DNA of 64,000 nt from Pseudobdellovibrionaceae bacterium (GCA_019637955.1 JAHBUS010000001.1:62001-126000); one strand, 5' to 3'. Counted from the first letter of the stretch, positions 10,938 to 38,990 are shown. The notes: generated by a model from the sequence alone, not told the origin. Translations and numbers: made by a program.

Positions 10938-11065
10938 AAACAACTGATCGGCGATTTGCGCTGGGGGAATCAGACTTGGGGTCTAGTATGGAGAGAACTT
11001 GATAGGCTTGAATCAAACTTGGACCGCCCGTCTCAAAACGAGCGGCCCAATAAGGTTCTGGACAC

Positions 11066-12088
11066 TTATTCGACGGTGGAGAGGATCTCTTTGGCCTTCT
11101 GGCTGTCTTTGACGTCTTTCAAGATGATTTTCACTCGGCGGCTTCGATCGTAGTCGACCTGCCCGCCACGGATCACGGGCTGCGATTCGCCCAGGGCCTG
11201 GGTCCCGATCGTGGAATCCGAAACGCCATCGCTGGCGAGCGCACGTTTCACGCTTTCGGCGCGGCGCTGGGACAGCTCTTCATTGTACGATTCCGTCCCG
11301 GTGGGATCCGCGAAACCCTGCACTTCAATTCCCGAAGCGACGTCGGGATTGTCTTTCAAGGCCGACGACAGTTTTTCGAGATCTTGGCGGGCACCCGAAG
11401 AGATCTCGGCTTTATCGACTTCAAAGTAGATGCGCTTCGGAACGACCATTTCACTCACGCCCGTGGGCGCGGCCTCATTGGCCGCGGGAACCGGGCGCGA
11501 AGCCTGTTCGCTGCGAACGCGGGTCGCGCCGGGCGATCCACCGATCTGCAATTCAAGTGCGGCATTGGTCACGGTCTGCGCCGGGATATTGAGATCCGCC
11601 ATGCCTTTGAGGCCCAATCGCATCAGTGTCGAATCGCCGAGAGCCCAGTCTTTATAAACGCCCACCCCGGCAAATGCCGCGAGCGTGTCGTCCGAAGCGC
11701 CGAGTTCGCGGGCTTTTCCAAGCGTGGTGTTGATCACGGGACCCGCGTGCCAAGTTTGCGCCAGACGGTAACCCGCAACGCCTTCGAGAATCGCGGTGTC
11801 GATCTTTTGATCCGCATCGCGGTTGTCGAAACGAAACGCACCCAAACTCAGATCGTTGATCCAGTTTTCGGTGTACTGCGAGCCGATGATCTTCAGACCG
11901 GCTTGATCGATATTGATCGAATCTTCGTTTTGAATGTTGTCCAAGGCGCCGCCCACCGCGGAACCGAACAACCAAAACCCTTGGGGATTTTTGGCCGAAT
12001 TTGGCTGCGTGTAATCGAGGCGCGACGTGTTTTGCGCCATGGCGGCGACGGAAGCGAACATCGTGAAGGTCAAAGCTGCGAATTTCAT
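11066..12088 (-). CDS. OmpA-family outer-membrane protein with peptidoglycan-binding domain
   Basis: A 340-residue exported protein. ATG 12088 starts a signal peptide ('FTMFASVAAMAQN') and has GGAG eight bases upstream; a longer frame to 12136 would mask it. Residues about 20-200 look like a beta-rich barrel or periplasmic domain. Residues about 220-335 are the OmpA-type C-terminal domain: 'KRIYFEVDKAEISSGARQDL', 'IEVQGFADPTGTESYNEELS', 'RRAESVKRAL' and 'SRRVKIIL', which include the Asp and Arg that hold diaminopimelate in peptidoglycan. It probably tethers the outer membrane to the wall. The N-terminal domain does not match classical OmpA closely, so any pore function is open. Confidence 0.88.
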   Translation of the reverse strand: MKFAALTFTMFASVAAMAQNTSRLDYTQPNSAKNPQGFWLFGSAVGGALDNIQNEDSINIDQAGLKIIGSQYTENWINDLSLGAFRFDNRDADQKIDTAILEGVAGYRLAQTWHAGPVINTTLGKARELGASDDTLAAFAGVGVYKDWALGDSTLMRLGLKGMADLNIPAQTVTNAALELQIGGSPGATRVRSEQASRPVPAANEAAPTGVSEMVVPKRIYFEVDKAEISSGARQDLEKLSSALKDNPDVASGIEVQGFADPTGTESYNEELSQRRAESVKRALASDGVSDSTIGTQALGESQPVIRGGQVDYDRSRRVKIILKDVKDSQKAKEILSTVE

Positions 12089-12202
12089 GGGTGCATCTCC
12101 TTGAGGGGTTGGAATGCACCCATGATGGATCAACATGTGACGGCTGTCACCCGGGAGCGTGTTTAGAGTTCTTCACGCCTCCTCAGAAAATCCCGACACT
12201 GC

Positions 12203-12937
12203 TCAATGCTTGAGCTTCACTTGAACCTGCACGGCCCCCGCCGGCGAAAGACTGAGCGTCTGGACATCGGCCGCGCCGTACTTGTTCTCTAAGAGCATCG
12301 ACACGCTCGAGAGGTAAGGCGAAAAGAATCGAATGCGCGGGGTTTGCCGCGCCATGGGCGAGAGCGTTCGCAAACAGGAGACCGCGTCCTTCTCGTTCGC
12401 GCACACCGACGTGTCGAGGTAGTTGCGCCCCATCGGAAGCGCGGGGTCCTCAAAGGCACCGCTCTGAACGGCCTGATCGCGCAGCACCACGTCCGATGTC
12501 ACATGCTGCTTGAGCGCGTACAGTTGATGGCTGGAAATCGACGCGACCGAGCAGGTGTCTTTGGTTTTTCCGTACATGAATTCGACGTGAACGCTTTGCT
12601 GAAGCGGATCGTTCACTGTGACCTCGACCTCGCGGGTTTCGCCGGGCAGGATGGGGGCCGACGTCGCCGTCGAGAACGTGACTTGTGAATCACGCATCAA
12701 CTCCTGTTGGCGCGTCATCGTCATTCCTGACCGGCAGATCTCGGCGAAACCGCCCGTCGGCGCTTGACCCACTCTGGAGAGGGCCAACTGTCCGTTCGTG
12801 ACGTAGATCACGCCCGGTGATAAAGGCATCAAGCCGCCGTTGGTGACCGCGACTTTGTAGACGTCGGCGTGCGCATGTAGGCCCGCCAGCATCAGAGCCG
12901 CCAAGGCTCCGCAAATTTTTAAGGATGCTGTTTTCAT
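12203..12937 (-). CDS. Secreted protein with spondin-like domain
   Basis: A 244-residue protein with a signal peptide (residues 1-24, 'LAALMLAGLHAHADV') and ATG 12937 preceded by AAGGAGG. The mature protein begins 'YKVAVTNGGLMPLSPGVIYV', has 'LSRVGQAPTGGFAEICRSG' and then 'ILPGETREVEVTV', the same order of blocks as bacterial spondin_N domains (a beta-sandwich binding surfaces or metal in animal spondins). The match is by eye. After it, a helical part and 'FFSPYLSSVSMLLENKYG' are unassigned. It is transcribed in the same direction as the OmpA-type gene 114 bases downstream, suggesting a surface role. It could also be an unrelated beta-sandwich. Confidence 0.65.
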   Translation of the reverse strand: MKTASLKICGALAALMLAGLHAHADVYKVAVTNGGLMPLSPGVIYVTNGQLALSRVGQAPTGGFAEICRSGMTMTRQQELMRDSQVTFSTATSAPILPGETREVEVTVNDPLQQSVHVEFMYGKTKDTCSVASISSHQLYALKQHVTSDVVLRDQAVQSGAFEDPALPMGRNYLDTSVCANEKDAVSCLRTLSPMARQTPRIRFFSPYLSSVSMLLENKYGAADVQTLSLSPAGAVQVQVKLKH

Positions 12938-13092
12938 GATTCCTCCTTGGAGGTCTTTGCGCAGAGCGGATTGATTTCCGTGCGCTCGAAGACACTCTCC
13001 GGTTGGAACCACGATTTGTCGCGAATAGAGATGCTAAAGCGGGAGATTAGCTTTTCTAAACTCCCCAGTTCTCTTCACACTTCGGCGAAAAT

Positions 13093-13902
13093 TCAGAGAA
13101 CGGGCTCGACCACCGGCAGCTCGGGATTGACACCGCGAACCTCGCGGCCGCTCATCGACGCCTCTTCAAGGCCCGGATGATAATGGTAGACCAGCGCCCC
13201 GTCTTTCAAGAGCGGGAAGATTTTCTTTGCGAGCGAAAGAGAAATCGCCGGGCAACCCCAGCTCACGCCGAGACGGTTGTACGGGAGCTTGGTCAAAGGA
13301 TTTGTGGTCTTTGCAAAAGACGAGTCCGCATACCAAGCTCCGTGCATCACGATGTCGCGGTTGTAAGCTTGATCATTGGAACTCATCAAGCCGTACATGC
13401 GCAAAGTCGCGCCGTAACTGCCGCTGTAAGTTTCGCCCGTCACGTAGATGCCGAGGGACGTTTGGCGCGAATCTTTGACATTGCTAAACTTGTAAGCGTA
13501 GAGCTCGCCGGTGTTTTTGCCGTGGGTGACCAGGGTTTTGCTCACCACGCCCGTCTTCCAATTGATCAGGAAGTAGCGCGTCTCCATCGAGGGCTTCGTG
13601 TAATCGATGATCACACCGTACTCGTGCCCTTTCAGCGTGACGGTGCGCTCGGCCTTTTTGCGCTTTTTCTCTTCGCACGGTTTCACGCTCGCCGGGTCTT
13701 GACCATCGCAGGTGTAAACGTCCTGTTTGAACTCGCGCCCGTTGTTTTGATCGAAGAATCGAACCAACCGGTCAAGCGCCTCACGGGGAACGCCCTGTTC
13801 CACGATCTTGGTTTGCAACTCGGGCGTCACCAGTTCCGAGGCCGAGGCCCCCAGGCTTGCGATCAGGAGCGAGACGCTCATCATCAACTTAACGGCTTTC
13901 AT
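13093..13902 (-). CDS. Murein L,D-transpeptidase catalytic-domain protein
   Basis: A 269-residue exported enzyme (signal peptide 1-22) of the L,D-transpeptidase catalytic domain 2 family, which forms or exchanges cross-links in peptidoglycan using a cysteine nucleophile. The catalytic motif is seen as 'RLGVSWGCPAISLSLAKKI', with the nucleophilic Cys, and the His in 'IVMHGAWYADSS'. Upstream, 'LINWKTGVVSKTLVTHGKNT' forms the YkuD-like beta core. GGAGG precedes ATG 13902. Its first 14 bases overlap the end of the protease gene upstream, so the two are co-transcribed. In predatory relatives such enzymes strengthen or modify prey or own wall; which applies here is not decided by sequence. Confidence 0.88.
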   Translation of the reverse strand: MKAVKLMMSVSLLIASLGASASELVTPELQTKIVEQGVPREALDRLVRFFDQNNGREFKQDVYTCDGQDPASVKPCEEKKRKKAERTVTLKGHEYGVIIDYTKPSMETRYFLINWKTGVVSKTLVTHGKNTGELYAYKFSNVKDSRQTSLGIYVTGETYSGSYGATLRMYGLMSSNDQAYNRDIVMHGAWYADSSFAKTTNPLTKLPYNRLGVSWGCPAISLSLAKKIFPLLKDGALVYHYHPGLEEASMSGREVRGVNPELPVVEPVL

Positions 13903-14662
13903 TCAAAACCTCCGCGCGCGAATGGGCTTTGAGGGCGGCCTGGACCCGTTTCGAGAAAACGGAAACCGGGATCGCCCCATTGCTAAAATTGACATGGTAG
14001 TACTTCACAACTTCGTCGAAGCGGGCCCGCTCGGTCACGTTGAGCGCGACCACGCGGTAATCGTTTCCGCGCTTGGCGAGAAGCGGTCCGCCCGAGCTCC
14101 CTGCGCGGCTGGCGCAGTCATGCCGCCAACCGCCCCGGTCCGGAATCGTTTCCGGATGCACCAGGCACTGGGGGTCGAGGGTCAGGCTGTCGGTCATGCG
14201 ATCGCCCGGATAGCCAGCGAGCACCAAGTTTTCGTTCATCACATTTTCGTGGGTCAAGGTTTCGAGTTCAAACCACCCGTACACCTCGCCCAGACAGACC
14301 GAAAGCTTCATCAAAGCCCAATCCTCTTCGTTTGCACCGACGCGCGCTTGGGGATTGTAGCGTCCCGCCGCGACGATCACGGCCTCGACCGGCGTCTCGC
14401 TTAAGAGCGTGAAGTGCGAAGGCGCTTCACCTTGAGCCACGTGAAAGTTCGTGAGGATGTGACAGCGGCCCACCAGAAAAGCCGTTCCACGTCCGTCACG
14501 GTCGGGGTGCGAGAGCACGCCCACGCGGGCCAGAGGCTCGCCCATTTTGGGCTGAAGCGACTCGCGGTCATCGCGGTAGAAAATCCCGGCCTTCGACGGC
14601 AAAGCCCCCAGCACGAGGGCCAAGGCCAAAAACGGTCGCAGGCCTGTCAAAAAGTATGACAT
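13889..14662 (-). CDS. Exported trypsin-like serine protease
   Basis: A 257-residue chymotrypsin-fold protease. ATG 14662 starts a signal peptide ('FLALALVLGALPSKAG') with GAGAGGAT just upstream; the longer frame to 14737 is less likely. The catalytic triad is visible: His in 'CHILTNFHVAQG', Asp in 'NEEDWALMKLSV' and Ser in 'RAGSSGGPLLA'. There is no PDZ domain, so this is not a DegP-type protease. Several cysteines, including 'GRCHILT' and 'KLSVCLGEV', could form disulfides. It overlaps the L,D-transpeptidase gene downstream by 14 bases. Likely roles are extracellular protein digestion or processing of envelope proteins. Confidence 0.87.
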   Translation of the reverse strand: MSYFLTGLRPFLALALVLGALPSKAGIFYRDDRESLQPKMGEPLARVGVLSHPDRDGRGTAFLVGRCHILTNFHVAQGEAPSHFTLLSETPVEAVIVAAGRYNPQARVGANEEDWALMKLSVCLGEVYGWFELETLTHENVMNENLVLAGYPGDRMTDSLTLDPQCLVHPETIPDRGGWRHDCASRAGSSGGPLLAKRGNDYRVVALNVTERARFDEVVKYYHVNFSNGAIPVSVFSKRVQAALKAHSRAEVLNESR

Positions 14663-26310: not shown

Positions 26311-27402
26311 TTAGCGCCGGCCGCTGGTGGGCGTGCGGCCGCCGCCGGTGCTGCGGATATCTCCGTACGCTTGCAGGGTGCGCGCATTTCGCGAGCATTT
26401 GCCGGCGGTCGGGACGATTTCGGCGAAGGTCGCGGGGTTGTGAGCGACACCGCCGATGGCGATGTCAATGTGCAAGTGAGGAGCGTAACCGCTGTTGGGA
26501 CTGATGTTGGCCATGCCGGTGCCTTTCGACACGCACGAGCCGGTGGAAGGCAGCGGACTGCGGTCCAAGTGCCGGTAGGCCGAAACGCAATTGCGAGCCG
26601 ACCCCATCGCCTTGGGACACTGCTTGTGATCCATGATGATCGTAAAGTTGGTGCGGCCGCCCGCATTCACCACGCGGCGGATTTTTCCGTCGGCCACGGC
26701 TTTGACCTGACCTCCACGTGTGCGGCGGATGCCGGCGGTGGGATTCATGTCCAAACCCGCGTGCACGCCGCCGCGGCGGTACCTCGCGCGGCTCGAACCA
26801 AAACAAGAGGTGACGCGAGGATTGTCGAGCGGAGGACCGAAACCCGAGTCGCTGCCGCAGCTCCCCGCCATCGGCGTTCCGCTCGCGGGCGTCGACGTGA
26901 CGTCTCGCGATGCGCCCGGCGTTCGTGAGTCTGCTGAAGGGTTCGGCGCGCGCGAGGCCAAAACCGTGGTCCCGGCGTTGGCGGGAGCGGGCTCATTGGC
27001 CGCCGCCGCGGGCGTGCTGGCCGCCGGCGTTTGCGTGGCCGCACTCGGCGACGTGGCCGTACCGGTCGCGGGCGTGTTTTTCTTTCCCATCATGCCCAAG
27101 ACGGCCGGGAGCATGGCGCCCGCCATTTGCAGCATCATTTGATTTTGCGTGTTGGGCGTGGGGCTTGGGGTCGCCACGCTTACTGCGGGCGGAACATAAA
27201 GAGTGGGATGGTATTGGTTCACACCGGGTTGAGCATTGCCGTAAAGAGCGGTGGGCTGACCCGTGGCGGGGTCCACGGCGGCGCCGGTTCCCGCAACGGG
27301 AGCGTACGACCAAGAGCCGGCGTTGACCACGGGGCCAAACATCAGAACCGACACGATCACCATCGACATCGATCCTTTAAAAGCCTTTGTCTGTGTTTCC
27401 AT
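26311..27402 (-). CDS. Secreted M23 peptidase with shared N-terminal module
   Basis: A 363-residue exported zinc endopeptidase. After a signal peptide (1-27) comes a module of about 80 residues ('GSWSYAPVAGTG', 'VDPATGQP', 'YGNAQPGVNQYHP', 'QMMLQMAGAMLPAV') that recurs almost unchanged in the hydrolase at 28015-29067. A disordered Ala/Pro/Thr/Ser linker follows. The C-terminal catalytic domain is M23 (LytM type): zinc ligands in 'HAGLDMNPTAG' and 'PHLHIDIAIGG', plus 'AYRHLDRS'. It would cut peptide cross-links in peptidoglycan. Several Cys ('AGSCGSDSG', 'VTSCFGSS') fit an extracytoplasmic protein. AGGGGGAC precedes ATG 27402. Confidence 0.88.
   Translation of the reverse strand: METQTKAFKGSMSMVIVSVLMFGPVVNAGSWSYAPVAGTGAAVDPATGQPTALYGNAQPGVNQYHPTLYVPPAVSVATPSPTPNTQNQMMLQMAGAMLPAVLGMMGKKNTPATGTATSPSAATQTPAASTPAAAANEPAPANAGTTVLASRAPNPSADSRTPGASRDVTSTPASGTPMAGSCGSDSGFGPPLDNPRVTSCFGSSRARYRRGGVHAGLDMNPTAGIRRTRGGQVKAVADGKIRRVVNAGGRTNFTIIMDHKQCPKAMGSARNCVSAYRHLDRSPLPSTGSCVSKGTGMANISPNSGYAPHLHIDIAIGGVAHNPATFAEIVPTAGKCSRNARTLQAYGDIRSTGGGRTPTSGRR
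27107..27156. repeat. 50-bp exact repeat, copy 1 (inside M23 peptidase gene)
   Basis: This 50-base stretch is identical, base for base, to 28766-28815 and lies at the same place in the two paralogous genes (coding for the 'QNQMMLQMAGAMLPAV' part). The flanking few hundred bases are also very similar. Exact identity including third codon positions points to recent duplication or gene conversion. Confidence 0.9.
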
Positions 27403-28014: not shown

Positions 28015-29067
28015 TTACCTGCTATTTCTTTTTGCTCGGGGCCGTGCGGCCGAGCCGCCGCCGATCATCGAGCCCGTGAAAGGTCCGCATTTTGCCAGAG
28101 GTCCCGCCGCGATCTTGGCGGGATCGGGAACGTAGCATCCCTCCAACTTTCGAGCACCCCGCGTGTACTCATCGATCGGACGGTAGTCAGAAAAGAACGA
28201 CCAGTACTTGTTATCACTGCCTAAGACTTCGATGTGGCCGTGCTTGGCATTTCGCCCTCCACCATGACCACTGTAGACACGGATGACTCCTTGAGTTTTG
28301 CATTTGCTTCGATCGTCAACAAATCCCGCGCGCTTGAGGCTCCCATTGCGGTGGGCGTCGATCGCGGAGCCGCCAGTGATGATCCCGCGCAGGCAACCCT
28401 CGTTCTTATTGAGCGCCTTGGCAATGAAGGCCTTGACGGCTCGGTAACACATCCCGGACCCCGCATTGAGGCCCATTCCGGACGCGGCGGTTTTGGCCAA
28501 AGCTTCCATGATATCGCCGCTCGGCGGGGAACTCTGCCCAGGCCCTGTCGGCGTTCCGGGGTCGCGCTCCTCGTCTTGAGTTCCCCGGTAAGGGCGGTTG
28601 GCGGAAGATGCGGGCGCGTCTGCCGCCGTTGAACTCGAAGGGCCTCCACTGGGGGACGAAGGCGCCGAGGCCGGCGTTTGCGATCCTGGATTGGAGGCCG
28701 TGATGGGGTTCGTGCTCGCGCCGGTCGCAGGCGTGTTTTTCTTTCCCAGCATTCCCATGACCGCGGGGAGCATGGCGCCCGCCATTTGCAGCATCATTTG
28801 ATTTTGCGTGTTGGGTGTCGGGCTGGGAGTGGTGGCCGTGACCGGCGGCGGAACGTAGATGGTCGGATGGTATTGATTCACGCCGGGCTGGGCATTGCCA
28901 TAGAGCACCCGGGGCTGACCGGTCGCGGGATCCACCGCACTGGTTCCGGAGCTGGCCACGGGCGTATAAGACCAGGAACCTGCGTTCGTCATCGACGGCT
29001 CAAGAATCAAGAGCGATGCGAAGAGCATCGACAAGATTCGTTTTTGACTGAGCGCACGGCGACCCAT
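28015..29067 (-). CDS. Secreted CHAP/NlpC-like hydrolase with shared N-terminal module
   Basis: A 350-residue exported protein whose residues about 28-110 are nearly identical to those of the M23 peptidase at 26311-27402. After a Ser/Pro/Ala-rich linker the C-terminal 150 residues are different: 'GSGMCYRAVKAFIAKALN' provides a Cys at the head of a helix and 'NAKHGHIEVLGSDNKYWSFF' a His on a strand, the order of catalytic Cys and His in CHAP and NlpC/P60 amidases or endopeptidases. 'GSAIDAHRNGSLKRAG' between them is also typical of CHAP folds. It should cleave peptidoglycan. GGGGGAA precedes ATG 29067. It heads an operon with the small protein at 27583. Confidence 0.78.
   Translation of the reverse strand: MGRRALSQKRILSMLFASLLILEPSMTNAGSWSYTPVASSGTSAVDPATGQPRVLYGNAQPGVNQYHPTIYVPPPVTATTPSPTPNTQNQMMLQMAGAMLPAVMGMLGKKNTPATGASTNPITASNPGSQTPASAPSSPSGGPSSSTAADAPASSANRPYRGTQDEERDPGTPTGPGQSSPPSGDIMEALAKTAASGMGLNAGSGMCYRAVKAFIAKALNKNEGCLRGIITGGSAIDAHRNGSLKRAGFVDDRSKCKTQGVIRVYSGHGGGRNAKHGHIEVLGSDNKYWSFFSDYRPIDEYTRGARKLEGCYVPDPAKIAAGPLAKCGPFTGSMIGGGSAARPRAKRNSR
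28766..28815. repeat. 50-bp exact repeat, copy 2 (inside CHAP-like hydrolase gene)
   Basis: Identical over 50 bases to 27107-27156, at the matching position of the paralogous gene. The two copies are in direct orientation about 1.66 kb apart, so recombination between them could delete or swap the catalytic ends of the two hydrolases. Confidence 0.9.
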
Positions 29068-29197: not shown

Positions 29198-29812
29198 ATG
29201 AGCACGCTTGGATTTTTGTCCCAAATCAAATGGATCGAATCGAATTTTACCGAAATCCTGCCCAGTTCCGAGGTGGCGCTCGATCTTCGTTACGCCACCG
29301 CCGAGAACTTCATGCACGCCGATCTCTATGCGGGATTTGACCGCTGTTTTCTGCATCCCGAAGCGGCGGCCCGCTTTGCCCGCGCCTGCGCCACGCTCAA
29401 GGCGCGTCATCCTGACTTGCAGTTTCGCATTTGGGATGCGCTGAGACCGCAGTCGGTGCAGGCACGGATGTTCGAACACTTGCAAGGCACTCCCTTCGAA
29501 ACTTACGTCGCCGCTCCCCTTCCGGGATCAATGCACAACTTCGGGATCGCGCTGGATCTCACGCTGCAAACCAAAGACGGCCGGAAGCTCGACATGGGCA
29601 CCGACTTCGACGACTTCGCCGACCTGGCGCAGCCCCAAAAGGAAGAGCATTTCTTGGCGACCGGCGAACTTTCGCGGGAAGCGTTTGCCAATCGCCTGCT
29701 CTTACGCAGGCTTCTCGAGGAGCAGGGTTTTCGCGTGCTGCCGCACGAGTGGTGGCACTTCAACGCGCTCCCTTCGGATCAAGTCTACGGACGATTCCCG
29801 ATGCTCCGCTGA
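29198..29812 (+). CDS. D-alanyl-D-alanine dipeptidase (VanX/DdpX family)
   Basis: A 204-residue zinc peptidase of family M15D that splits the dipeptide D-Ala-D-Ala. The zinc site is complete: 'GSMHNFGIALDLTLQ' (S-x-H-x-x-G-x-A-x-D) and 'VLPHEWWHFNAL' (E-x-x-H). 'RIWDALRPQSVQARMF' carries the Arg that stabilises the transition state. No signal peptide is seen, so it acts in the cytoplasm, probably recycling D-Ala-D-Ala taken up from degraded peptidoglycan rather than giving vancomycin resistance, since no vanHA genes are near. A weak -35/-10 pair (TTGAGA 29162-29167, TACGCT 29185-29190) would place transcription start close to the ATG, and no ribosome site is visible. Confidence 0.9.
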   Translation: MSTLGFLSQIKWIESNFTEILPSSEVALDLRYATAENFMHADLYAGFDRCFLHPEAAARFARACATLKARHPDLQFRIWDALRPQSVQARMFEHLQGTPFETYVAAPLPGSMHNFGIALDLTLQTKDGRKLDMGTDFDDFADLAQPQKEEHFLATGELSREAFANRLLLRRLLEEQGFRVLPHEWWHFNALPSDQVYGRFPMLR

Positions 29813-29864: not shown

Positions 29865-30989
29865 ATGGGGAAGAGAACTCAGTTTTCTTTTTTGCTTTCG
29901 CTTTTGGCTCTCGCCATCCTTCCCCTATTCCAGAACTGCTCCGAAGTGAAGCTGGCCGAAAAAGCCGAAGTCAAAAGCATCGAGCTTCCGTCAGGCGTGC
30001 CGACCATCGCGAGTTTTGGCGGCTGGGCGCGCGCCACGCCGATGACGACGGTTTGCGAGAACAATCAGGCCAAGTGTGATCACTGGCGCACCGATCCCGA
30101 CACCGTGGGGCTCACCTACGAATGCAGCACCGCTTCGTCAACCGGCGCGCACAACGGCGTGTGGACGACGATCTCGAGCGCGAACGGCGCCGTCCCGACC
30201 AACTATCCCGATGCCTTGGGCGCCTGCGTGCGCAACTGCAATGCGGCCTTTCAGGACAGCTCGCTCGAAGATCTCGAAAGCAAAGGACTGGCTTGTCGAT
30301 TTGCCGTTCGCGGAACGCTCTCGGACTTTCCGTTCGAGCATCGCAACACGTTCTTGGATGTGGGCAGTCTCTCCTACCATGTCGATGCCGAACTCTTGCC
30401 TTGGAATGAAATTTGGAGTTGGACGCTCTCCCGCTTCAATGCCTGGGCCAAAAAGAGCTCACTCACGACCGAGAACCTGATGCGCATCAAAAAGTACAAC
30501 TACCATATCGCCTATCCCGAATCGAACTGGCTCTCGACCGAAGAGGTCTTTCACGAAAACTTTCCGGCGAAGCTCGCGGACAATGATCCGACGCTCAAGG
30601 GCCGCCTGATCAATTACGACGCCAGCACGGGGCGCGGGACGGGCTGGGCCTGCTTGATCAATACCAATAAGCGTTTGAAGGTGCGCGTGTGGGCCGCTTC
30701 GGCGGACGACGAACACGCCCTGCTCACCGAGACCGAAACCAACATGGCCGCCGAACAGGCGATCAATGACGAGTGTCAGAGCATTCCGGGCGCGAAGTAC
30801 AAGTTTGAGTTCCAGCTTTCACCGTCAACGCTGGCGAGTCTCAATGCGGGACTCGGCTTCTGCCGCAACAAACTCGAAGTCACCGTGACCTATTTCGATG
30901 CCGGCGGTGTCGAAAAGATCTTCACGATCCAAGACCGGCTCTCGCTGTCTGGCGCGATCGAGCTGCCGAACAAATGTCCAACCTTCTAA
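29865..30989 (+). CDS. F-Q-N-C lipoprotein of unknown function
   Basis: A 374-residue exported protein. The signal sequence ends 'ALAILPLFQNCSEVKL', with Cys as the presumed lipid-modified residue but an F-Q-N-C lipobox in place of the usual L-A-G-C. The mature protein starts with a segment containing paired Cys ('TVCENNQAKCDHW', 'YECSTASSTGAHNGVW') and continues with mixed strands and helices; the last third looks like a beta-sandwich. No family is recognised. The start is ATG 29865; an upstream TTG is less likely. Two further lipoproteins with the same lipobox follow in the next operon, 84 bases away, suggesting a shared machine on the cell surface or in the periplasm. Confidence 0.78.
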   Translation: MGKRTQFSFLLSLLALAILPLFQNCSEVKLAEKAEVKSIELPSGVPTIASFGGWARATPMTTVCENNQAKCDHWRTDPDTVGLTYECSTASSTGAHNGVWTTISSANGAVPTNYPDALGACVRNCNAAFQDSSLEDLESKGLACRFAVRGTLSDFPFEHRNTFLDVGSLSYHVDAELLPWNEIWSWTLSRFNAWAKKSSLTTENLMRIKKYNYHIAYPESNWLSTEEVFHENFPAKLADNDPTLKGRLINYDASTGRGTGWACLINTNKRLKVRVWAASADDEHALLTETETNMAAEQAINDECQSIPGAKYKFEFQLSPSTLASLNAGLGFCRNKLEVTVTYFDAGGVEKIFTIQDRLSLSGAIELPNKCPTF

Positions 30990-31073
30990 ACTCTGAACCA
31001 GAGTGAGAATCTCGCGCGTAACGCCTTAAGTCTAGTCAGGAATTTCCGAAAAGAAGGTATGGGGAATCAAGCC

Positions 31074-32780
31074 ATGCGCTTCGCTATTTTCTTTTTGTTC
31101 GCCGCTGTCATCGGGCTGCCGTCGCTCACGCTCGCCGCACCCGCGGAAGAGCTGCGGCTGTTTCAGCGTTGCTACGTGCACTTGACCGGCAAACCGATTC
31201 CGCTGGGCGATGCCCGTATCAACAAGCTCAAGACCGCGCAGACCACCGCGCTCAAAGAGTGCTACGCGCTTTTGGACAACGCCAAGCTGCAAGCGAATGG
31301 CCGCCCCAAACTTGACACCGAAGAGAGCCGCCAGGTTTTGCGCCAGTTCTTTCACTTCACCCGCTCCTGGCTTCCCAACACCGCGCAAGAACAGATTGCG
31401 GGCTTCTCGGTGGAATATCTCTGGGGCACGGTCGACACGTTTGACATGAATGCCCCCGCCTACGCGATGACTTACTACGCTTTACGCGAAGGCGCCAAGT
31501 ACTCGGACCTTCTGCGCGGGAACCGGGGTTTCGAATCGATCCGCGAATACGACAATGAGACGCGCATGCGCCACGGTGTGAATCAAACCAACGTCACCCG
31601 CTACCTTCAAGGCGACAATTCGGACTACGCGCGACGTTTTCAACCGAATGTCTTCGCCTTTCGTTACTCGGGTCCCTTGCTCGAGGGCAACTACGACACT
31701 TTCCGCTACACCGACGTGAACAACACCATGGAAGTTCCGAACTACCATTCAACCTTGGTGACGCTCCCGCGCACGCCGATGGGAGAACTGGCCGGCATTG
31801 TTCCCGACACCCGTAACTTCGCGGCCCCGAACTTCACCCTCGATCCTTTCAACAACGCGTTCGTGAACGAACGGCGTGGCGATCTTCTTCCGGACGTGGA
31901 CCGAACCCGCAACATGTACCAGGGTTTCGGCGGAGGCGTGATCGGTGATCCCGTGTTCTTCATGTTGAACTCGGGTCACCCGGTCGGCACCCTCTTCAAT
32001 GGCTCGTTTAAACTGCCACGCCGCTGGTCGCAGACGGTTCAAAACATATTCCTTTGCATCGACCCCACTTTGCGCAAACCCGTTCGCAGCAAAGACGTCA
32101 CGTCCATGGTGATCACGACCTCCAACCGCGCGGCCGACGAGGCCGCCAACTGGGAGAGCATCCCGGGCTTCCGCAAACAGTCCAGCTGCATGCAGTGTCA
32201 TGCCTCCCTCGATCCGATGGCCAGCACCGCGCGCAACCTGATCATCGCTTCGAGCGATTGGGGCTCGCACTTGGACAACACAACCGCCTCCGCCGGCGAC
32301 GGAACCAAGAACACGATTTTCATTTCAAGTTTCACCCCGAACTCGTCGGTGACTTTGATTCGCGATTGGCCCAGCTACGCCGCCGAGACGAACGCCCTCA
32401 CCAAAATGCCGATCTACGCGCGCACGGCGCCCACCGGCGCCCTTCGCTACCGCACCTCCGAAGGTGAGCTGGTGAGCACGCCGGTCGCCAACATGGAAGA
32501 GCTTGGCAACGCGATCGCCAGCCAGGATGATTTCTACCGCTGCACCGCCAAGCGCTACTTCTACATGTTCACCGGCGTCGACGTGAACCTCTTCGACCGC
32601 CGCGATCCCGTGAATGAAGCTTTGAATTTGCAGATGGATGAGCGCGCCGTTCAACGCCGCGACCTGATCCAAAGCATGGCCGACGAGCTTCGCAAGACGC
32701 AGTCCATTCCGAACATGCTGAAGGTCATCTTGCGCTCGCCGACTTATTTGGACTTGAATTACAAACAGGGGGCCCAATAA
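31074..32780 (+). CDS. Exported haem-motif protein (DUF1588/DUF1592-like)
   Basis: A 568-residue protein with a signal peptide ('LFAAVIGLPSLTLAAPAE'). At residues about 372-376 lies C-x-x-C-H in 'SSCMQCHASLDPMASTARN', the haem-attachment motif in the context C..CH..[IL]DP that is typical of the DUF1588/DUF1592 group paired with DUF1501/DUF1552 proteins in Planctomycetes and other bacteria. Whether haem is really bound is not shown by sequence. Large parts are rich in Asn, Tyr and Arg, as in big periplasmic proteins. ATG 31074 fits a normal signal peptide; ATG 31059 is an alternative. Its stop overlaps the next ATG (TAATG), so it is translationally coupled to the Tat-exported protein. Confidence 0.78.
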   Translation: MRFAIFFLFAAVIGLPSLTLAAPAEELRLFQRCYVHLTGKPIPLGDARINKLKTAQTTALKECYALLDNAKLQANGRPKLDTEESRQVLRQFFHFTRSWLPNTAQEQIAGFSVEYLWGTVDTFDMNAPAYAMTYYALREGAKYSDLLRGNRGFESIREYDNETRMRHGVNQTNVTRYLQGDNSDYARRFQPNVFAFRYSGPLLEGNYDTFRYTDVNNTMEVPNYHSTLVTLPRTPMGELAGIVPDTRNFAAPNFTLDPFNNAFVNERRGDLLPDVDRTRNMYQGFGGGVIGDPVFFMLNSGHPVGTLFNGSFKLPRRWSQTVQNIFLCIDPTLRKPVRSKDVTSMVITTSNRAADEAANWESIPGFRKQSSCMQCHASLDPMASTARNLIIASSDWGSHLDNTTASAGDGTKNTIFISSFTPNSSVTLIRDWPSYAAETNALTKMPIYARTAPTGALRYRTSEGELVSTPVANMEELGNAIASQDDFYRCTAKRYFYMFTGVDVNLFDRRDPVNEALNLQMDERAVQRRDLIQSMADELRKTQSIPNMLKVILRSPTYLDLNYKQGAQ

Positions 32781-34516
32781 TGAAACGCCGGGACTTTTTG
32801 AAATACGGCGCGGGCGCAGGCGCGGCGATGGCCGCCAGTCCCTTCGTCGCCCACTTTTACCAGGCCCTTCTCGACGGCGTGATTTCAAAAGCCTACGCGG
32901 TCGAGGCCGGCTCGAACGCGCGCCGCTACGTTTCGTTCAACTTTATCGGGGCGCCGTCGCGCTTCACCTTCGATCATTGGCTCAAGACAAATGCGAACGA
33001 TCCGTTCACGTACCAGAAAGACAATGATGCCAACCGCACGCAGCAAGTGGCCACCACGCTGCAAACTTCGGGCGGGATGACCAATGCGGTTTACCGCGTC
33101 GAAGCGACGCCGTCGTCACGAGGCGTACTGGTGCCGATCTTATGGCAAAACACGGTGCAACTCTCCTCGAGAACCGCGCGTTTGGATGAGCTTCTTCCGA
33201 ACATGGCGGTGATCCGCGGTTACGGACACACCGCCGACGGCCATACGGGCAACAACACCCTTCAACAGGCCCCCATCGCCGGAAAACCGTCGATCGCCGG
33301 CGCCGTCGCGGACGCTTCGCGCCGCCGCCTGGAGGCCGTGCAGTGCCCGAATGCTTCGGGCTGGAGCGCGTACGCCAGCGATCGCAAGATCTCGCCAAAC
33401 GTTTTGGCCAACTACATGGACCCGGTGAGCGAACTCACGGCGCCGATGCGCCCCGAAGGCCCCGCGACGGGCCGCCACCTGACCCAAGAACTCAAAGACA
33501 ACCATAAAACCGCGATGGAACTGGCGCGAGACCGGCTCAAAATGCACATCAATTCGGACCGCACGGGCACCGAGGCGCTGCGACGCGCGCGCGACAATGC
33601 CGAAGAGCTGATGAAGACCGCCGGCGAGAACGCGATCGACGCGTGGAACGAATCCGTCGTGCGCTACGAAACCATCGTGATGCAGGCCTTCCGCGATCAG
33701 AACGCGATCGGCTTCACGCAAAACGTGAACCTCACCGTGGACGCGCGGACCAACGTGGACGACTCTTCACCCTGGTCCATCCAAAGCGGCGGGATCGCCT
33801 CGCTTCAGGAGGGCCAGAACCTGTTGCAAATCGTGCGCACCGGAGTTCCCTTTATCGTCGCGGAGATGTTCGCGCTGGTGGAGTTCCTGCTCTTGAACAA
33901 CCTGGCCTCGTCGATTGAGGTTCAGCCCGGCGTGGGGACCAACACGATCAACATCAATGGACTCACGATGCGCGATGGAACCACGCCGACCAACATCAAC
34001 ATCCCTCACGACATGCACGCCAGCGGCGCCATCACCACGGCTCTGCACACGGGCGCGTACTGGCGCGGTGTGGGAGCTTGCATCTTGGAGCTGCGCGACC
34101 GCTTGATGGCGTCGAACGATGAAAACGGCAACAACCAATGGGAGAACACGGTCCTGCAATTGATGTCGGATTTCGGTCGGGCGCCCCGATCGAGCGGCAC
34201 GGGATCGGATCATGGCTTCTACATGATGGCGACGAGCCTCTTCACGGGAGCCTTCACCAATGGCCCTCATGTCATGGGCAACGTTCGCGCGAGCGGAAAA
34301 GATGCCGGCTACGAAGGCACCGTGGGATACCACGCACCCGTCCCGGGCTACACCAACGATCCGGCCGCGCCGTCCTTCATGGGAAGCCAGGTCATGCACA
34401 TTGTGGGGCTGACCGGCGAAGCGAACCCCTACAAAAACTTCGTGGCCGCGGGGATCAACATCCACGCCGGGGTCGCCACGCTGGATGACGCCATCAAAGG
34501 GAAGGTGGTCGCATGA
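32780..34516 (+). CDS. Tat-exported DUF1501-like protein
   Basis: A 578-residue protein starting with a twin-arginine signal 'KRRDFLKYGAGAGAAMAAS'. The mature part shows 'MSDFGRAPRSSGTGSDHGFY', matching the 'S[ED]FGR[TA]PR...G.DHG' motif of DUF1501 proteins, which belong to the alkaline-phosphatase/sulfatase-like fold, and 'INIPHDMHASG' could add a metal ligand. Whether it is a hydrolase is unknown. Such proteins are usually encoded next to a C-x-x-C-H protein, as here. It shares one base with the gene before and overlaps the lipoprotein gene after it by four bases (ATGA at 34513-34516). Export in folded form suggests a cofactor or metal. Confidence 0.82.
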   Translation: MKRRDFLKYGAGAGAAMAASPFVAHFYQALLDGVISKAYAVEAGSNARRYVSFNFIGAPSRFTFDHWLKTNANDPFTYQKDNDANRTQQVATTLQTSGGMTNAVYRVEATPSSRGVLVPILWQNTVQLSSRTARLDELLPNMAVIRGYGHTADGHTGNNTLQQAPIAGKPSIAGAVADASRRRLEAVQCPNASGWSAYASDRKISPNVLANYMDPVSELTAPMRPEGPATGRHLTQELKDNHKTAMELARDRLKMHINSDRTGTEALRRARDNAEELMKTAGENAIDAWNESVVRYETIVMQAFRDQNAIGFTQNVNLTVDARTNVDDSSPWSIQSGGIASLQEGQNLLQIVRTGVPFIVAEMFALVEFLLLNNLASSIEVQPGVGTNTININGLTMRDGTTPTNINIPHDMHASGAITTALHTGAYWRGVGACILELRDRLMASNDENGNNQWENTVLQLMSDFGRAPRSSGTGSDHGFYMMATSLFTGAFTNGPHVMGNVRASGKDAGYEGTVGYHAPVPGYTNDPAAPSFMGSQVMHIVGLTGEANPYKNFVAAGINIHAGVATLDDAIKGKVVA

Positions 34517-35193
34517 AATCGCGCTCCCTGCTCCCCCTTCTTTTTGGCGTCATCACGCTCAGCAGTTTTCAGAACTGCGCGCAAAATGGTTTTGCGACCG
34601 GGTCCGACGAGGTCCTTTCATTCACGGAGTCTTCGTCGCAATCCGACACCAACCATCCGGGCGAACCCGTTCCCAAGTTCGATTCGTTTCAAGAACCGAT
34701 CATCAACAAACTCTACATCTCGGAAGTCATGCGGAGCATTTTCAAATCCGGCGACGGCGGGGTTGAATACCTGCTCGATCGTTGGGTGATGAGCAACGGG
34801 CCCAATTTCGGTGTGGGCTGCGACCTTTATTCGAGCTCCTCGAATGCCTATTGCTACGGAGGACCTTCGAACGCCAATGCCGCGACCCGCACCAACGCGA
34901 CGGTGATGCGCGAGTTGTACCGCTTGAAAATTTGCAACACCATCATCGGCGCGGGCGGATCGGTCGCCTCCGCGATGACGAAGGTGGGCCTCACGCCCGC
35001 GAGCGCGGTCACGCCGGAAAATCTCACGAAGGTGTACAATCTCTTTTACCGCACCCAAGATCCCAGCAGCTTCGAGATCGAGACCTTCACGCAACTGACC
35101 ACGTCGCTCGAATCCGAGGGCGTGAACCGCACCGAGCAGTGGCGCGCCGTTTTGATCACGATTTGCGAAACCACCGGCTGGCAACAATTCTAG
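34513..35193 (+). CDS. F-Q-N-C lipoprotein, second in cluster
   Basis: A 226-residue lipoprotein: the signal sequence ends 'FGVITLSSFQNCAQNGFATG', the lipobox F-Q-N-C again. The mature part has a short Ser/Asp-rich linker, then a helical domain with four Cys ('NFGVGCDLYSSSSNAYCYGG', 'RLKICNTIIG', 'ICETTGWQQF'). No family is recognised, although the size and helical pattern would fit an accessory subunit. The ATG overlaps the stop of the DUF1501-like gene and the next gene starts seven bases after its end, so co-expression is certain in practice. Confidence 0.78.
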   Translation: MKSRSLLPLLFGVITLSSFQNCAQNGFATGSDEVLSFTESSSQSDTNHPGEPVPKFDSFQEPIINKLYISEVMRSIFKSGDGGVEYLLDRWVMSNGPNFGVGCDLYSSSSNAYCYGGPSNANAATRTNATVMRELYRLKICNTIIGAGGSVASAMTKVGLTPASAVTPENLTKVYNLFYRTQDPSSFEIETFTQLTTSLESEGVNRTEQWRAVLITICETTGWQQF

Positions 35194-35200
35194 GAGACCT

Positions 35201-36607
35201 TTGAGCACGAAACGTCAGGGCGCTCTATTTTTAGTTCTGAACATGGCGATGATCCTCATCGCCTTTCAGAATTGCAGCGAGATGGCCCCCAGCGAGGCGC
35301 TGGTGGAAGAGACCGCCATTCTCGAGCAAGAGCGCTCGATCACGATGTCTTTGCAAAACGATGACAGCTTGCTGTTCTGGAAAAATCCGAACAGCACCTC
35401 GTCGCTCTCGCAGGTCCTGCGCCGCGAGACTCAGTGGTCGGCCGTGTTCTACCTCCGTCCGGGTGGAGACGACACCCTGATTTCGATCACGCCGGGCGAT
35501 GACTACGAGTTTTTCGAACTCAAACGCGTCGGCGCCACCCTCGTCCTCAAATACGTGAACGACGATGAGGCCTCTTATAGCTACACGCTCCCGCTTTCGA
35601 GCCATGAGCCCCACATCGTCGGCTTCTCGTTTGGCCCGACTCCCGACATGCAGATGTTTTACGTGGATGGACGCTACGTCAAGCTCACCCGGGCCGATGT
35701 CGGCGATCCCCGCGACGTGATGAGCCTGGACCGTGACATGACCGTGTCCAATCAGTTGGAAGAATTCATCATGTTCTCGCGCGCACTGACGGGAATCGAG
35801 ACAAACTCGCTCAGCCGGAGCATGGGACGCGCCTGGGGGATGGGCGAACTGCCGTTCGATATCGGACCCGATGTTCCCAAGGTCGAAGTCTACACGCCTT
35901 CGCTGCGTTTCTTGGCGGCCAAGCAGGTCATCGCGACCCGATGCCTGGAGTGCCATGGCGAGTGGTCGGGTTACAACAACGAAAATCAGTTCGTCCGCAA
36001 CTTGGCTTCGGGATCCAAACTCGTGAAACCAAAGGATCTGGCCGCATCGGAGCTCTACCACCGCGTGACCTTGCCTTCGAACGATGCCAAGCGGATGCCC
36101 GAAGCGCCTTCGGCCGAATTGACCAGCGCCGAAAAAGCCAAGCTCGCCGACTGGATCGAGCACTTCGGCGAACCCGACCCCGAAGCGACGCCCACGCCCA
36201 CCCCGGGGCCTTCGGCGACACCGACGCCGGTGATGACGCCGACGCCCACCCCCACACCCGTGGACCCGGCCGTGCTCCGCTTCCAGCAAGCGAAGCTGGT
36301 CCTGATGCGCCAGTCTTGTTTTAGCTGCCACTCGGCCTGGGCGGGACAAAATGAAGCCTTCTTCAAGGCCACGCTCACCACGCAGACCACTTTGCCGGTC
36401 AATGGCCAAGGTGAAAACATTGTCGGCGCACCGCCGCTGTTCGTTCCCGGCGTCGCCCTGGTCGTCCAGGGAAATCCCGACGCGTCCGCCATCATCATGA
36501 GGGTCCAGAGCACCGTGCCGGTCGGCGCACGCATGCCCAAAAATCTCCCCGCCATCAGCACGGGAGACCTTGCCACGCTCCGCAACTGGATTCAGAATAT
36601 GCCATAA
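35201..36607 (+). CDS. F-Q-N-C lipoprotein with LamG-like domain and two haem c motifs
   Basis: A 468-residue lipoprotein. The start is TTG 35201, with AGGAG six bases upstream; the signal ends 'MILIAFQNCSEM'. Residues about 45-215 are a beta-sandwich of the LamG/concanavalin type ('WSAVFYLRPGGDDTLISI', 'MQMFYVDGRYVKLTRAD'). A first C-x-x-C-H follows in 'TRCLECHGEWSGY' with a distal Met candidate, then a Pro/Thr linker ('TPTPTPGPSATPTPVM') and a second C-x-x-C-H in 'QSCFSCHSAWAGQ'. This would be a membrane-anchored di-haem cytochrome c with a binding domain. It lies in the operon with the C-x-x-C-H and DUF1501-like proteins, consistent with an electron-transfer or surface complex. Confidence 0.82.
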   Translation: MSTKRQGALFLVLNMAMILIAFQNCSEMAPSEALVEETAILEQERSITMSLQNDDSLLFWKNPNSTSSLSQVLRRETQWSAVFYLRPGGDDTLISITPGDDYEFFELKRVGATLVLKYVNDDEASYSYTLPLSSHEPHIVGFSFGPTPDMQMFYVDGRYVKLTRADVGDPRDVMSLDRDMTVSNQLEEFIMFSRALTGIETNSLSRSMGRAWGMGELPFDIGPDVPKVEVYTPSLRFLAAKQVIATRCLECHGEWSGYNNENQFVRNLASGSKLVKPKDLAASELYHRVTLPSNDAKRMPEAPSAELTSAEKAKLADWIEHFGEPDPEATPTPTPGPSATPTPVMTPTPTPTPVDPAVLRFQQAKLVLMRQSCFSCHSAWAGQNEAFFKATLTTQTTLPVNGQGENIVGAPPLFVPGVALVVQGNPDASAIIMRVQSTVPVGARMPKNLPAISTGDLATLRNWIQNMP

Positions 36608-36653
36608 TCAACAGGCCCGAGCCTTCAAGTGCCGGCGCCAAAGGAGTCCATCT

Positions 36654-37142
36654 ATGAAAGCGCTGCTTTCCAGCTTCGTTGTTTTGTTCTCTCTCTCCGC
36701 GATCGCCGAGACCGGCGTTGTTGCCCTCGTGAACCTTTCGCCCGCGGGCAATTTTCAAGCAAAGAGTTCGACCGTTCAAGGCACGGCCAAAATGACCGGC
36801 GACGAAGTCAAAGCTTCGAACGTCAAAATCCCTCTGAACACCTTGAAAACCGGCATCGAACTCCGGGACAAACACATGAAAGAAAAATATCTCGAGACCC
36901 AAACCCACCCCGACGCCGAGCTGATCGAGGCGAGCGGCAAGGGCGGCAAAGGCCGCGGTAAACTCAAACTCCACGGCATCGAAAAAGAAGTCAGCGGGAC
37001 TTACAAAATCTTGGGCGGCAAAGAGCTTGAAGCTGAATTCCCCATCAAATTGTCGGACTACGGCATCACCGGAATCAAGTACATGGGCGTGGGCGTGAAA
37101 GACGAAGTCAAAATCACCGTCACTCTCCCCGTGACCAAGTAA
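36654..37142 (+). CDS. YceI family periplasmic protein
   Basis: A 162-residue exported protein (signal peptide 1-18, 'LFSLSAIAETG') of the YceI family, a lipocalin-like barrel that binds polyisoprenoids or similar lipids. Seen are 'NVKIPLNTLKTGIELRDKHM', 'YLETQTHPDAELI' (the '[FY]L.....P.A.F' motif), 'GKLKLHGIEKEVSGTYKI' and 'LSDYGITGIKYMGVGVKDEV'. AAAGGAG precedes ATG 36654. It is 46 bases after the di-haem lipoprotein gene and ahead of a strong terminator, so it is the last gene of that operon. YceI proteins are often neighbours of cytochromes b561, which supports an electron-transfer theme. Confidence 0.9.
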   Translation: MKALLSSFVVLFSLSAIAETGVVALVNLSPAGNFQAKSSTVQGTAKMTGDEVKASNVKIPLNTLKTGIELRDKHMKEKYLETQTHPDAELIEASGKGGKGRGKLKLHGIEKEVSGTYKILGGKELEAEFPIKLSDYGITGIKYMGVGVKDEVKITVTLPVTK

Positions 37143-37157
37143 TTTTCAAAGAACGAC

Positions 37158-37187
37158 GCCCGTCTCCGCGAGGAGGCGGGCTTTTTT
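37158..37187 (+). terminator. Intrinsic terminator after the yceI-family gene
   Basis: GCCCGTCTCC (37158-37167), loop GCGA, GGAGGCGGGC (37172-37181) form a ten-base-pair stem with one G-T pair, followed by six T. It ends the operon running from 31074 and shields the convergent outer-membrane genes. Confidence 0.88.
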
Positions 37188-37205: not shown

Positions 37206-37796
37206 CTAGAACAAGAGCGAAGCTTGAAAGTTCCAGATCGTCTGCGAGGGAACGCCCGCGGGCCCGAAACCCTGCTCGATCAAAAAGTTTTTCGTGGGAC
37301 GAAGACGCCATGTCGCCATCATGGTGATGAGCGGATTTGAACCCGAACGGACCTTCAGGTTGGGATTGATCGTGTCCCATTGAACATTGCGAAAAATAAC
37401 CGGAAGCGAAACGCCAAGCTCGATGAACCGCTCGGTGCGATAATAGATCGCCGCTTTTCCGCCGTACCCGTCGAAATTGAAGTTGCTCTGTTTGTAGGTG
37501 ATCTCGTTCGAGTTGCCGCCGCCCACGGCTTTTCCGGCCAGCGCGAGGGCCTCCAGATCGTAGCCCCAGTTTTGGTAAACCCCGCGGTAGCCCGCACCGA
37601 ACGAGTTGGCCTGAAAGTTGGCCCAATCCGTGGACTGCACGACTCCTTGGGTGAGCGTCATGCGCTCGGTCCAATTCCAAAATCCAAACGTCAAAAAGAA
37701 CTGGTTGCGGTCCTGACTTCCTCGAATCGTCCCCTGGGCGCCCGCCAAAGAACCCAGAAGAAGTCCGAAGGTGAAAATCCAAATTTGTTTTTTCAT
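37206..37796 (-). CDS. Small outer-membrane beta-barrel-like protein
   Basis: A 196-residue protein with a signal peptide (1-20, 'FTFGLLLGSLAGAQG'). The mature part alternates polar and aromatic residues in about eight strands ('QFFLTFGFWNWTERMTL', 'IYYRTERFIELGVSLPVI') and ends in 'WNFQASLLF', the terminal Phe recognised by the barrel-assembly machinery. No enzyme motif is visible. It is the last gene of a three-gene outer-membrane operon, 12 bases behind the haem-motif barrel gene. It could be a porin or a structural barrel. Confidence 0.75.
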   Translation of the reverse strand: MKKQIWIFTFGLLLGSLAGAQGTIRGSQDRNQFFLTFGFWNWTERMTLTQGVVQSTDWANFQANSFGAGYRGVYQNWGYDLEALALAGKAVGGGNSNEITYKQSNFNFDGYGGKAAIYYRTERFIELGVSLPVIFRNVQWDTINPNLKVRSGSNPLITMMATWRLRPTKNFLIEQGFGPAGVPSQTIWNFQASLLF

Positions 37797-37808: not shown

Positions 37809-38990
37809 CTACAAAGACCAGTGAAGCTGCGCCTGCAGCGTCCAGAACTCTTCGGTCCCATTGGCCTGTGAGAACACGCGGCTATTGACCGCCGCCGCCC
37901 GAACCTCGGTGCGCGGAAGCGGAAAGGTCAAGAATCCCAAGTTCCAGCGCCAGTTGTGAAGTCCGCCCACGCTCGTGTCGGGGCGGTACCATTCGAGTTC
38001 GCCCAAAAAATTATAGCCGCGCGTGATGCGAATAAAACTTTGAAACAAACCGTAAGCGCCCAAAATCGAGTCCGCATTCGTGGCCAAGTTTTTATCGCGC
38101 ACGAGGCCCATCTCGGCCGAGAAGGCGGAGCCCGTTCCGATCCCGAAACGACCCGTCAAGGCCACGGCGTCCTTGCTGAGCTTTTCGCTCTTTTCGGTGA
38201 GCCCCGAAAATCCCACCCGCATTTTTTCGGCGGGTTCATACTCGGCCAAGAAACTGGCGCCCTTGTAACGGTCTTCGGGTTTTTCGGCGGTGTTGCCTTC
38301 AAAGGCCCCGATAAAAATCTCGGTGGGCAAAACGCTGCGCTGGTAGATCACGCCCAGACTCTGATCGTACTGGGTCATCCCGACCACGCGCCGCTGATAG
38401 CCGGCATGATTGATCTCACGCGTGCCGTACACCTTGTCGAGTTGACCCGCGTAGATCCACGACGTTTCGCCGAGCTGAAGCCGGAAGTACGCCTCTTTCA
38501 TCGCCCAGCCGGGGGCTTTGTCCTCGACGCTGGTCGAAAAGCGTCGCGGCTCTTCGTTGTTGGTCATGCTGCCGACAAAAATATATTTGTTTTCTTCATC
38601 CGCCGCGAGGGTGAGGTACACCTCTCGCTGCATGGGAATCCAGCGCTCGGTTTTGTTGGGGGAACCCGGGTTGGTTTGAAGGCCGATCGTGCGGCCCTTG
38701 ATGGCCGGACGGATCCAGTACGGGAGGTCCACGGCGGCCAAAAATTTGGAGTGCTCCCCGAGCTTTTCATCGCTGATGGTGACCGGAAAAATCGCACGGC
38801 TCGTGATCTCGGCGGCGAAAAGCGCGCGGCCGTAATCGTTCAGCGCCCCTCCGCCCGCCCCGTTGTAATGGCAAGTCATGCAGGACGAGTAGCCGTAACC
38901 GATAAAGTGGTGATACGCCTGGACCGGGAGCGAAACTCCCAGGACCAAACCAACGACGACGATCAGCGCTTTCAGCGAATCAAATTTCAA
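37809..38990 (-). CDS. Outer-membrane beta-barrel with N-terminal haem c motif
   Basis: A 393-residue exported protein (signal peptide 1-25). Directly after the cleavage site lies 'GYGYSSCMTCHYNGAGGGAL', a C-x-x-C-H haem-attachment motif followed by 'NDYGRALFAAEI'. The remaining 330 residues look like a 16- to 18-strand barrel with alternating aromatic residues ('EVYLTLAADEENKYIFVGSM', 'TSWIYAGQLDKVYG', 'FLGELEWYRPDTS') and a C-terminal 'LQAQLHWSL'. A haem or other covalent group at the mouth of a barrel suggests electron transfer across the outer membrane. The start overlaps the end of the upstream gene by 11 bases. Confidence 0.78.
   Translation of the reverse strand: MKFDSLKALIVVVGLVLGVSLPVQAYHHFIGYGYSSCMTCHYNGAGGGALNDYGRALFAAEITSRAIFPVTISDEKLGEHSKFLAAVDLPYWIRPAIKGRTIGLQTNPGSPNKTERWIPMQREVYLTLAADEENKYIFVGSMTNNEEPRRFSTSVEDKAPGWAMKEAYFRLQLGETSWIYAGQLDKVYGTREINHAGYQRRVVGMTQYDQSLGVIYQRSVLPTEIFIGAFEGNTAEKPEDRYKGASFLAEYEPAEKMRVGFSGLTEKSEKLSKDAVALTGRFGIGTGSAFSAEMGLVRDKNLATNADSILGAYGLFQSFIRITRGYNFLGELEWYRPDTSVGGLHNWRWNLGFLTFPLPRTEVRAAAVNSRVFSQANGTEEFWTLQAQLHWSL

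Follow-up and report, generated by a model that had tools for sequence, protein, structure and literature searches.

Genes that encode PSCyt3 adjoin a family of unknown function in Verrucomicrobia and Planctomycetes, and a link to carbohydrates has been suggested for them; some phyla contain such PSCyt/PSD genes and DUF1501/DUF1552 neighbours in large numbers, still without a known function (PMC5615132). DUF1501 and DUF1800 proteins are further known to accompany some bacterial chitin synthases (PMC5122149). Here we describe a cassette of exported proteins at positions 31074-37142 of a 64,000-nucleotide stretch of DNA from a Pseudobdellovibrionaceae bacterium (GCA_019637955.1 JAHBUS010000001.1:62001-126000), called the window below. 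Computation shows that its three core genes, encoding a protein with a CxxCH motif (P0002), a DUF1501-like protein exported by twin-arginine translocation (Tat) (P0003), and a lipoprotein with an FQNC lipobox (P0004), form one unit that is inherited together across the Bdellovibrionota.

The evidence for this was obtained from 60 relatives and from a phylum sample of 192 Bdellovibrionota genomes; 64 loci were read in detail and 57 complete triads were used for trees. P0003 homologues were detected in 20 of the 60 relatives, and nearly all these neighbourhoods have a homologue of P0002 as the next gene upstream and one of P0004 as the next gene downstream. Throughout the phylum sample, 56 genomes contain a strong P0003 match, and strong matches to the P0004 domain were found with their partners rather than apart from them, 84 of 87 having a P0003 homologue no more than 6 kb away and the remaining three being on contigs without any P0003 match. 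At 55 of the 64 loci P0003 is directly preceded on its own strand by the P0002 homologue, with a median gap of 3 bases, and in seven the alternative order P0003-P0004-P0002 is present. These counts place the arrangement far from chance. Patristic distances correlate across the three families (r 0.92, 0.85, and 0.89 for the 57 triads), the maximum in 1000 permutations being 0.28; since genes that sit in one genome have a common history, such mirror trees alone do not imply a physical complex. A profile search with alignment A4 recovered 13 loci, all of them Bdellovibrionota according to the record titles, and a search with the P0003 sequence alone detected no relative.

In the window, all genes of the run are on the plus strand. 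A preliminary description of this DNA had reported six exported genes in one direction, five of them tightly packed and ending at a strong terminator, and all six open frames were confirmed. P0001 (29865-30989) is followed by P0002 (31074-32780, 568 amino acids), P0003 (32780-34516, 578 amino acids), P0004 (34513-35193, 226 amino acids), P0005 (35201-36607, with a TTG start), and P0006 (36654-37142). P0002 and P0003 overlap by 1 base and P0003 and P0004 by 4 bases, whereas P0004 and P0005 are separated by 7 bases and P0005 and P0006 by 46 bases. An intrinsic terminator at 37158-37181, consisting of 10 pairs (8 of them G-C) and a subsequent TTTTTT, closes the cassette and is the strongest among 19 candidates. 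The FQNC lipobox proposed for three of the proteins is indeed present in P0001, P0004, and P0005. Of the five-gene order that had been expected to be kept, the triad P0002-P0003-P0004 is fixed, but P0005 and the YceI gene P0006 are only frequent accessories. What is co-inherited, in accordance with the earlier proposal, is an envelope-directed unit of a CxxCH protein, a Tat-exported DUF1501-like protein, and a lipoprotein, to which further cytochrome c genes are added.

P0003 had been described as a DUF1501-like Tat substrate. Its Tat signal scores above the Pfam cut-off (25.1 bits, cut-off 22.7), whereas its own match to DUF1501 (PF07394) reaches 23.3 bits and stays under the cut-off of 27; at the level of the family, 22 of the 24 aligned sequences match DUF1501 with E values of up to 0.1, the best being 9.5e-10. 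Judged by these scores, P0003 is a divergent DUF1501 relative rather than a member according to the Pfam cut-off rule. A sequence search of the PDB with the P0003 profile gave nothing meaningful. When an AlphaFold model of P0003 (predicted local distance difference test 69, predicted template modelling score 0.79) was compared with known structures using VIA-align, all 50 of the 50 best rows were enzymes of the alkaline-phosphatase superfamily (Z 11.6-14.0), among them nucleotide pyrophosphatase, sulfatases, and PafA. The top alignment (Z 14.0) had a root-mean-square deviation of 3.8 over 242 residues, and for the 50 rows the deviation was about 4 over 235-308 residues. Foldseek results were weak (best E 0.01), the leading matches being phosphoethanolamine transferases and lipoteichoic acid synthases. 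In the family alignment D411, H413, D477, and H478 are invariant or nearly so, and D411-x-H413, EF-x-R, and G-x-DH (S-D477-H478) are common to P0003 and the canonical DUF1501 paralogue of the same genome. SDHG is a usual metal motif of the alkaline-phosphatase superfamily. P0003 is predicted to adopt the fold of this superfamily and to keep part of its metal site. In the phylum sample, P0003-family matches number five to eight in four genomes of one family (G187, G189, G102, G179), an expansion that recalls the PSCyt genes of Planctomycetes.

The single CxxCH motif of P0002, CMQCH, occupies residues 372-376. The protein had been assigned a DUF1588/1592 character, of which the CxxCH motif and a weak DUF1588-like region remain, but P0002 itself scores below the Pfam cut-offs for PSD2 (DUF1585; 16.5 versus 25.8 bits) and for PSCyt3 (DUF1588; 13.9 versus 27 bits), and DUF1592 was not found in it by Pfam, nor was a DUF1587 or DUF1595 domain found in the cassette. 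PSD2 is matched by 21 of 25 members of the P0002 family (best 3.2e-8) and PSCyt3 by 8 of 25 (best 0.0012), so that the DUF1585/DUF1588 assignments, like that of DUF1501, are clear for the families while lying under the cut-off for the window proteins. The CxxCH motif and C33, C63, C328, and C490 are invariant in all 25 aligned members; the layout comprises invariant C372, C375, H376, and D380 in the PSCyt3 region and a subsequent PSD2-like segment (470-510). A sequence search of the PDB with the P0002 profile gave nothing meaningful, and comparison of its model (predicted local distance difference test 69, predicted template modelling score 0.75) with PDB folds gave no match at E < 2, a single row with Z 5.7, a phycobilisome linker, being not interpretable. 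Given their CxxCH motifs and the cytochrome c (haem-c) assembly gene present in the genome, P0002 and P0005 are regarded as putative c-type haem proteins.

P0004 lies outside known families and contains four more conserved cysteines besides that of its lipobox. In seven proteins (from loci L097, L094 (two), L043, L119, L048, and L098) the P0004 domain is the C-terminal domain of a longer lipoprotein that carries a CxxCH segment ahead of it, and in two of these Pfam detects cytochrome c below threshold (L043, E 1.5e-4; L048, E 5e-4). These fusions argue more strongly than any other observation for P0004 acting beside a haem protein. They also help the earlier suggestion of a membrane-anchored complex in which haems would serve the Tat protein. 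The L048 fusion (10323-14459, minus strand) is a lipoprotein of 1378 amino acids in which about ten Ig-like repeats are combined with a cytochrome c segment and the C-terminal P0004 domain, and its gene is located upstream of P0002 and P0003 homologues; the repeats suggest an extended surface protein.

Among the accessories, P0005 had been predicted to be an FQNC lipoprotein with two haem c motifs, which agrees with the motifs CLECH and CFSCH and with a PSCyt1 match of 31.5 bits (cut-off 22). A LamG-like domain, also attributed to P0005, was not detected by Pfam in P0005 or in four similar proteins, and its N-terminal half is LamG-like by reading only. At 25 of the 64 loci the gene after P0004 (or P0003) encodes a cytochrome c, of the P0005 type in 13 and of another type in 12. 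The identification of the last gene as a YceI gene holds, as P0006 scores 70.6 bits against a cut-off of 23.7, and members of the YceI cluster occur in 14 related loci; YceI, an FQNC protein of 156 amino acids, and a cytochrome of 209 amino acids each recur in 12-14 loci. Two further candidates were rejected. P0001, although counted as part of the system in the preliminary description, has no true homologue in the 60 relatives (one match of 8.9e-4 over 108 residues), and the FQNC lipobox does not mark the system, as it is common genome-wide, with 29 pattern sites and, among those read outside the cassette, 15 lipoprotein starts scattered in the same genome.

Beyond the terminator, two co-directional genes are located on the minus strand. 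The gene at 37809-38990, a recurrent neighbour that the preliminary description passed over, encodes a porin-like exported protein of 393 amino acids in which one CxxCH directly follows the signal peptide (AYHHFIGYGYSSCMTCH...ALNDYGR), the family motif being AYPxFIGYGYxSCxxCH...GGGxLxDYGR. In 7 cases, counting close relatives and the window, a homologue is found no more than 8 kb away from the triad, as against 0.14 expected for random placement within 10 kb; of the 64 loci, about 17, or roughly a quarter, have a gene of this type nearby. The protein has no Pfam family and a crude amphipathicity test for a beta-barrel gave z -0.1, no better than shuffles; the C-terminal residue of the proteins of this type is aromatic or Leu, as in outer-membrane proteins. 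Fused cytochrome-porins of the Cyc2 type contain AXPXFAR[QK][TY] upstream of CXXCH and a 16-strand beta barrel (PMC8406198). Like Cyc2 (PMC8406198), the window protein has a signal peptide, one CxxCH near the N-terminus, and a length of about 390 amino acids, and A-x-P-x-F occurs at the same spacing in most of its relatives. In contrast to Cyc2, AR[QK][TY] is absent from the family, which has AYHHFIGYGYSSC in the window and AYPxFIGYGY in most relatives. By these features the protein resembles fused cytochrome-porins, its porin-like part being a putative barrel at most. The second gene, at 37206-37796, encodes a predicted outer-membrane protein of 196 amino acids without a Pfam family, whose homologues adjoin a gene of the 37809-38990 type in some related loci (L035, 9e-17; L033, 1.5e-5).

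The explanation that we tentatively place first is an envelope-anchored protein that resembles a metal enzyme and cooperates with c-type haem proteins, its substrate being part of the envelope or extracellular. P0003 would fold and load its metal in the cytoplasm and leave it by the Tat route, and the lipoprotein P0004, together with the c-type haem protein P0002, would hold it at the outer membrane, a location suggested because the residue after the lipid-bearing Cys is Ala or Ser and not Asp. The target of P0003 there would be a polymer or ester of the envelope or of the cell's surroundings, and the reaction either one on sulfate or phosphate esters, as in its fold relatives, or an altered chemistry. 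We infer that P0002 and the P0005 cytochrome would pass electrons to or from this reaction, in some species perhaps by way of the neighbouring one-haem porin-like protein, and that YceI might carry a lipid or quinone-like ligand.

Several observations weigh against this explanation. In the P0003 family alignment there is no conserved Ser, Thr, or Cys at the nucleophile position, and the first metal Asp is unrecognisable; according to sequence and predicted secondary structure the invariant H155 stands instead at the helix start where the nucleophile usually sits. Because of this His155 and the unrecognisable Asp the chemistry of P0003 may be altered, and P0003 might not be a hydrolase at all. 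For DUF1501 proteins, no substrate or activity is reported in the searchable literature. The triad occurs in about one third of the genomes, so that the phylum's mode of life does not depend on it. Nor is the one-haem porin-like protein obligatory, since three Bdellovibrio-type genomes have its gene at a distance of 1.3 Mb from the triad; it would be a partner in no more than some of the species.

Rather unlikely, in our view, is a non-redox modification of the cell's own envelope, with P0003 as a metal-dependent transferase or hydrolase of the sulfatase or phosphoethanolamine-transferase type, the P0002 haem in a structural or regulatory role, and P0004 as a scaffold. The alkaline-phosphatase-superfamily fold, the enzymes leading the weak Foldseek matches, the single haem motif of P0002, and the occurrence of DUF1501 genes alongside chitin synthase genes in other bacteria (PMC5122149) would all fit such a role. 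However, the repeated recruitment of cytochrome c genes and the P0004-domain/haem-c fusions favour electron transfer, and the lack of a conserved Ser, Thr, or Cys nucleophile speaks against this reading. We consider improbable that the genes make up an outer-membrane electron conduit, formed by the one-haem porin-like neighbour, the diheme lipoprotein, and P0002 and accepting electrons from donors outside the cell, for instance Fe(II), or leading them outward, with the DUF1501-like protein in a structural role. The recurrence of the porin-like gene near the triad and an A-x-P-x-F spaced as in the cytochrome region of Cyc2 are consistent with a conduit, but the Cyc2-defining AR[QK][TY] is absent, the barrel test was negative, and the porin-like family, with members in 44 of the 60 relatives, is much more widespread than the triad. 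Equally doubtful is a phylum-wide Bdellovibrionota surface enzyme complex in which an alkaline-phosphatase-fold Tat protein with a remodelled site would oxidise envelope or prey polymers and electrons would leave through P0002, the lipoprotein cytochromes, and the fused cytochrome-porin. That unrelated exported genes stand together by chance in this genome would suit P0001 and the common FQNC lipoproteins but is extremely improbable in view of a triad conserved over 57-64 loci, with its order found in distant relatives, its co-inheritance, and its fusions.

Upstream of the run, the window contains a closely spaced pair of paralogous exported genes (26311-27402 and 28015-29067, minus strand; phmmer 3e-53), the second without a Pfam family, and the pair adjoins an M15 D-Ala-D-Ala dipeptidase gene (29198-29812).

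In the present locus the pairing of PSCyt/PSD genes with a DUF1501-type neighbour has shrunk to a compact unit of three genes, one of them for a new and specific lipoprotein partner that fusions tie to cytochrome c. Since Bdellovibrio bacteriovorus, in which genes are deleted routinely, carries the triad (strain kdesi, L058), the long-open question of what such pairs do becomes directly testable.

Compared with the pairs from Verrucomicrobia and Planctomycetes (PMC5615132), the cassette likewise has a CxxCH protein with PSCyt3/PSD2-like regions beside a family of unknown function and a PSCyt1 cytochrome in P0005; it differs in that P0002 and P0003 score below the family cut-offs, in that DUF1587, DUF1592, and DUF1595 were not detected, in the dedicated lipoprotein of its core, and in its restriction to Bdellovibrionota as far as searched. 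Like the DUF1501-DUF1800 pair (PMC5122149), it combines in one operon a DUF1501 protein exported by Tat and a partner without a known function, but here the partner is PSCyt3/PSD2-like with a haem motif, and neither a chitin synthase nor a sugar epimerase was detected alongside. The same genome has a second cassette (L050 on G000 contig C7, 7712-12034, minus strand, with genes at 11093-9576, 9579-8944, and 8947-7712), which encodes a Tat-exported DUF1501 protein, a product of 211 amino acids, a PSCyt3-like protein, and an exported protein of 314 amino acids. As in the window, a CxxCH PSCyt3-like protein is encoded near a Tat-exported DUF1501 protein, whereas the latter is canonical, shorter, and over the Pfam cut-off (53 bits), the PSCyt3-like protein has a second CxxCH, the middle gene is another one, and there is no P0004 lipoprotein. 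With the alkaline-phosphatase superfamily (nucleotide pyrophosphatase, sulfatases, PafA), P0003 shares its predicted fold, SDHG, and D-x-H, at an identity of about 10% and with the usual nucleophile and first Asp unrecognisable. The system had been called a candidate undescribed one, which is only partly correct, since PSCyt/PSD pairs are known from Verrucomicrobia and Planctomycetes (PMC5615132), but the Bdellovibrionota form with P0004 is new: its new parts are the P0004 lipoprotein family, the haem-c fusions of this family, and its fixed place in Bdellovibrionota.

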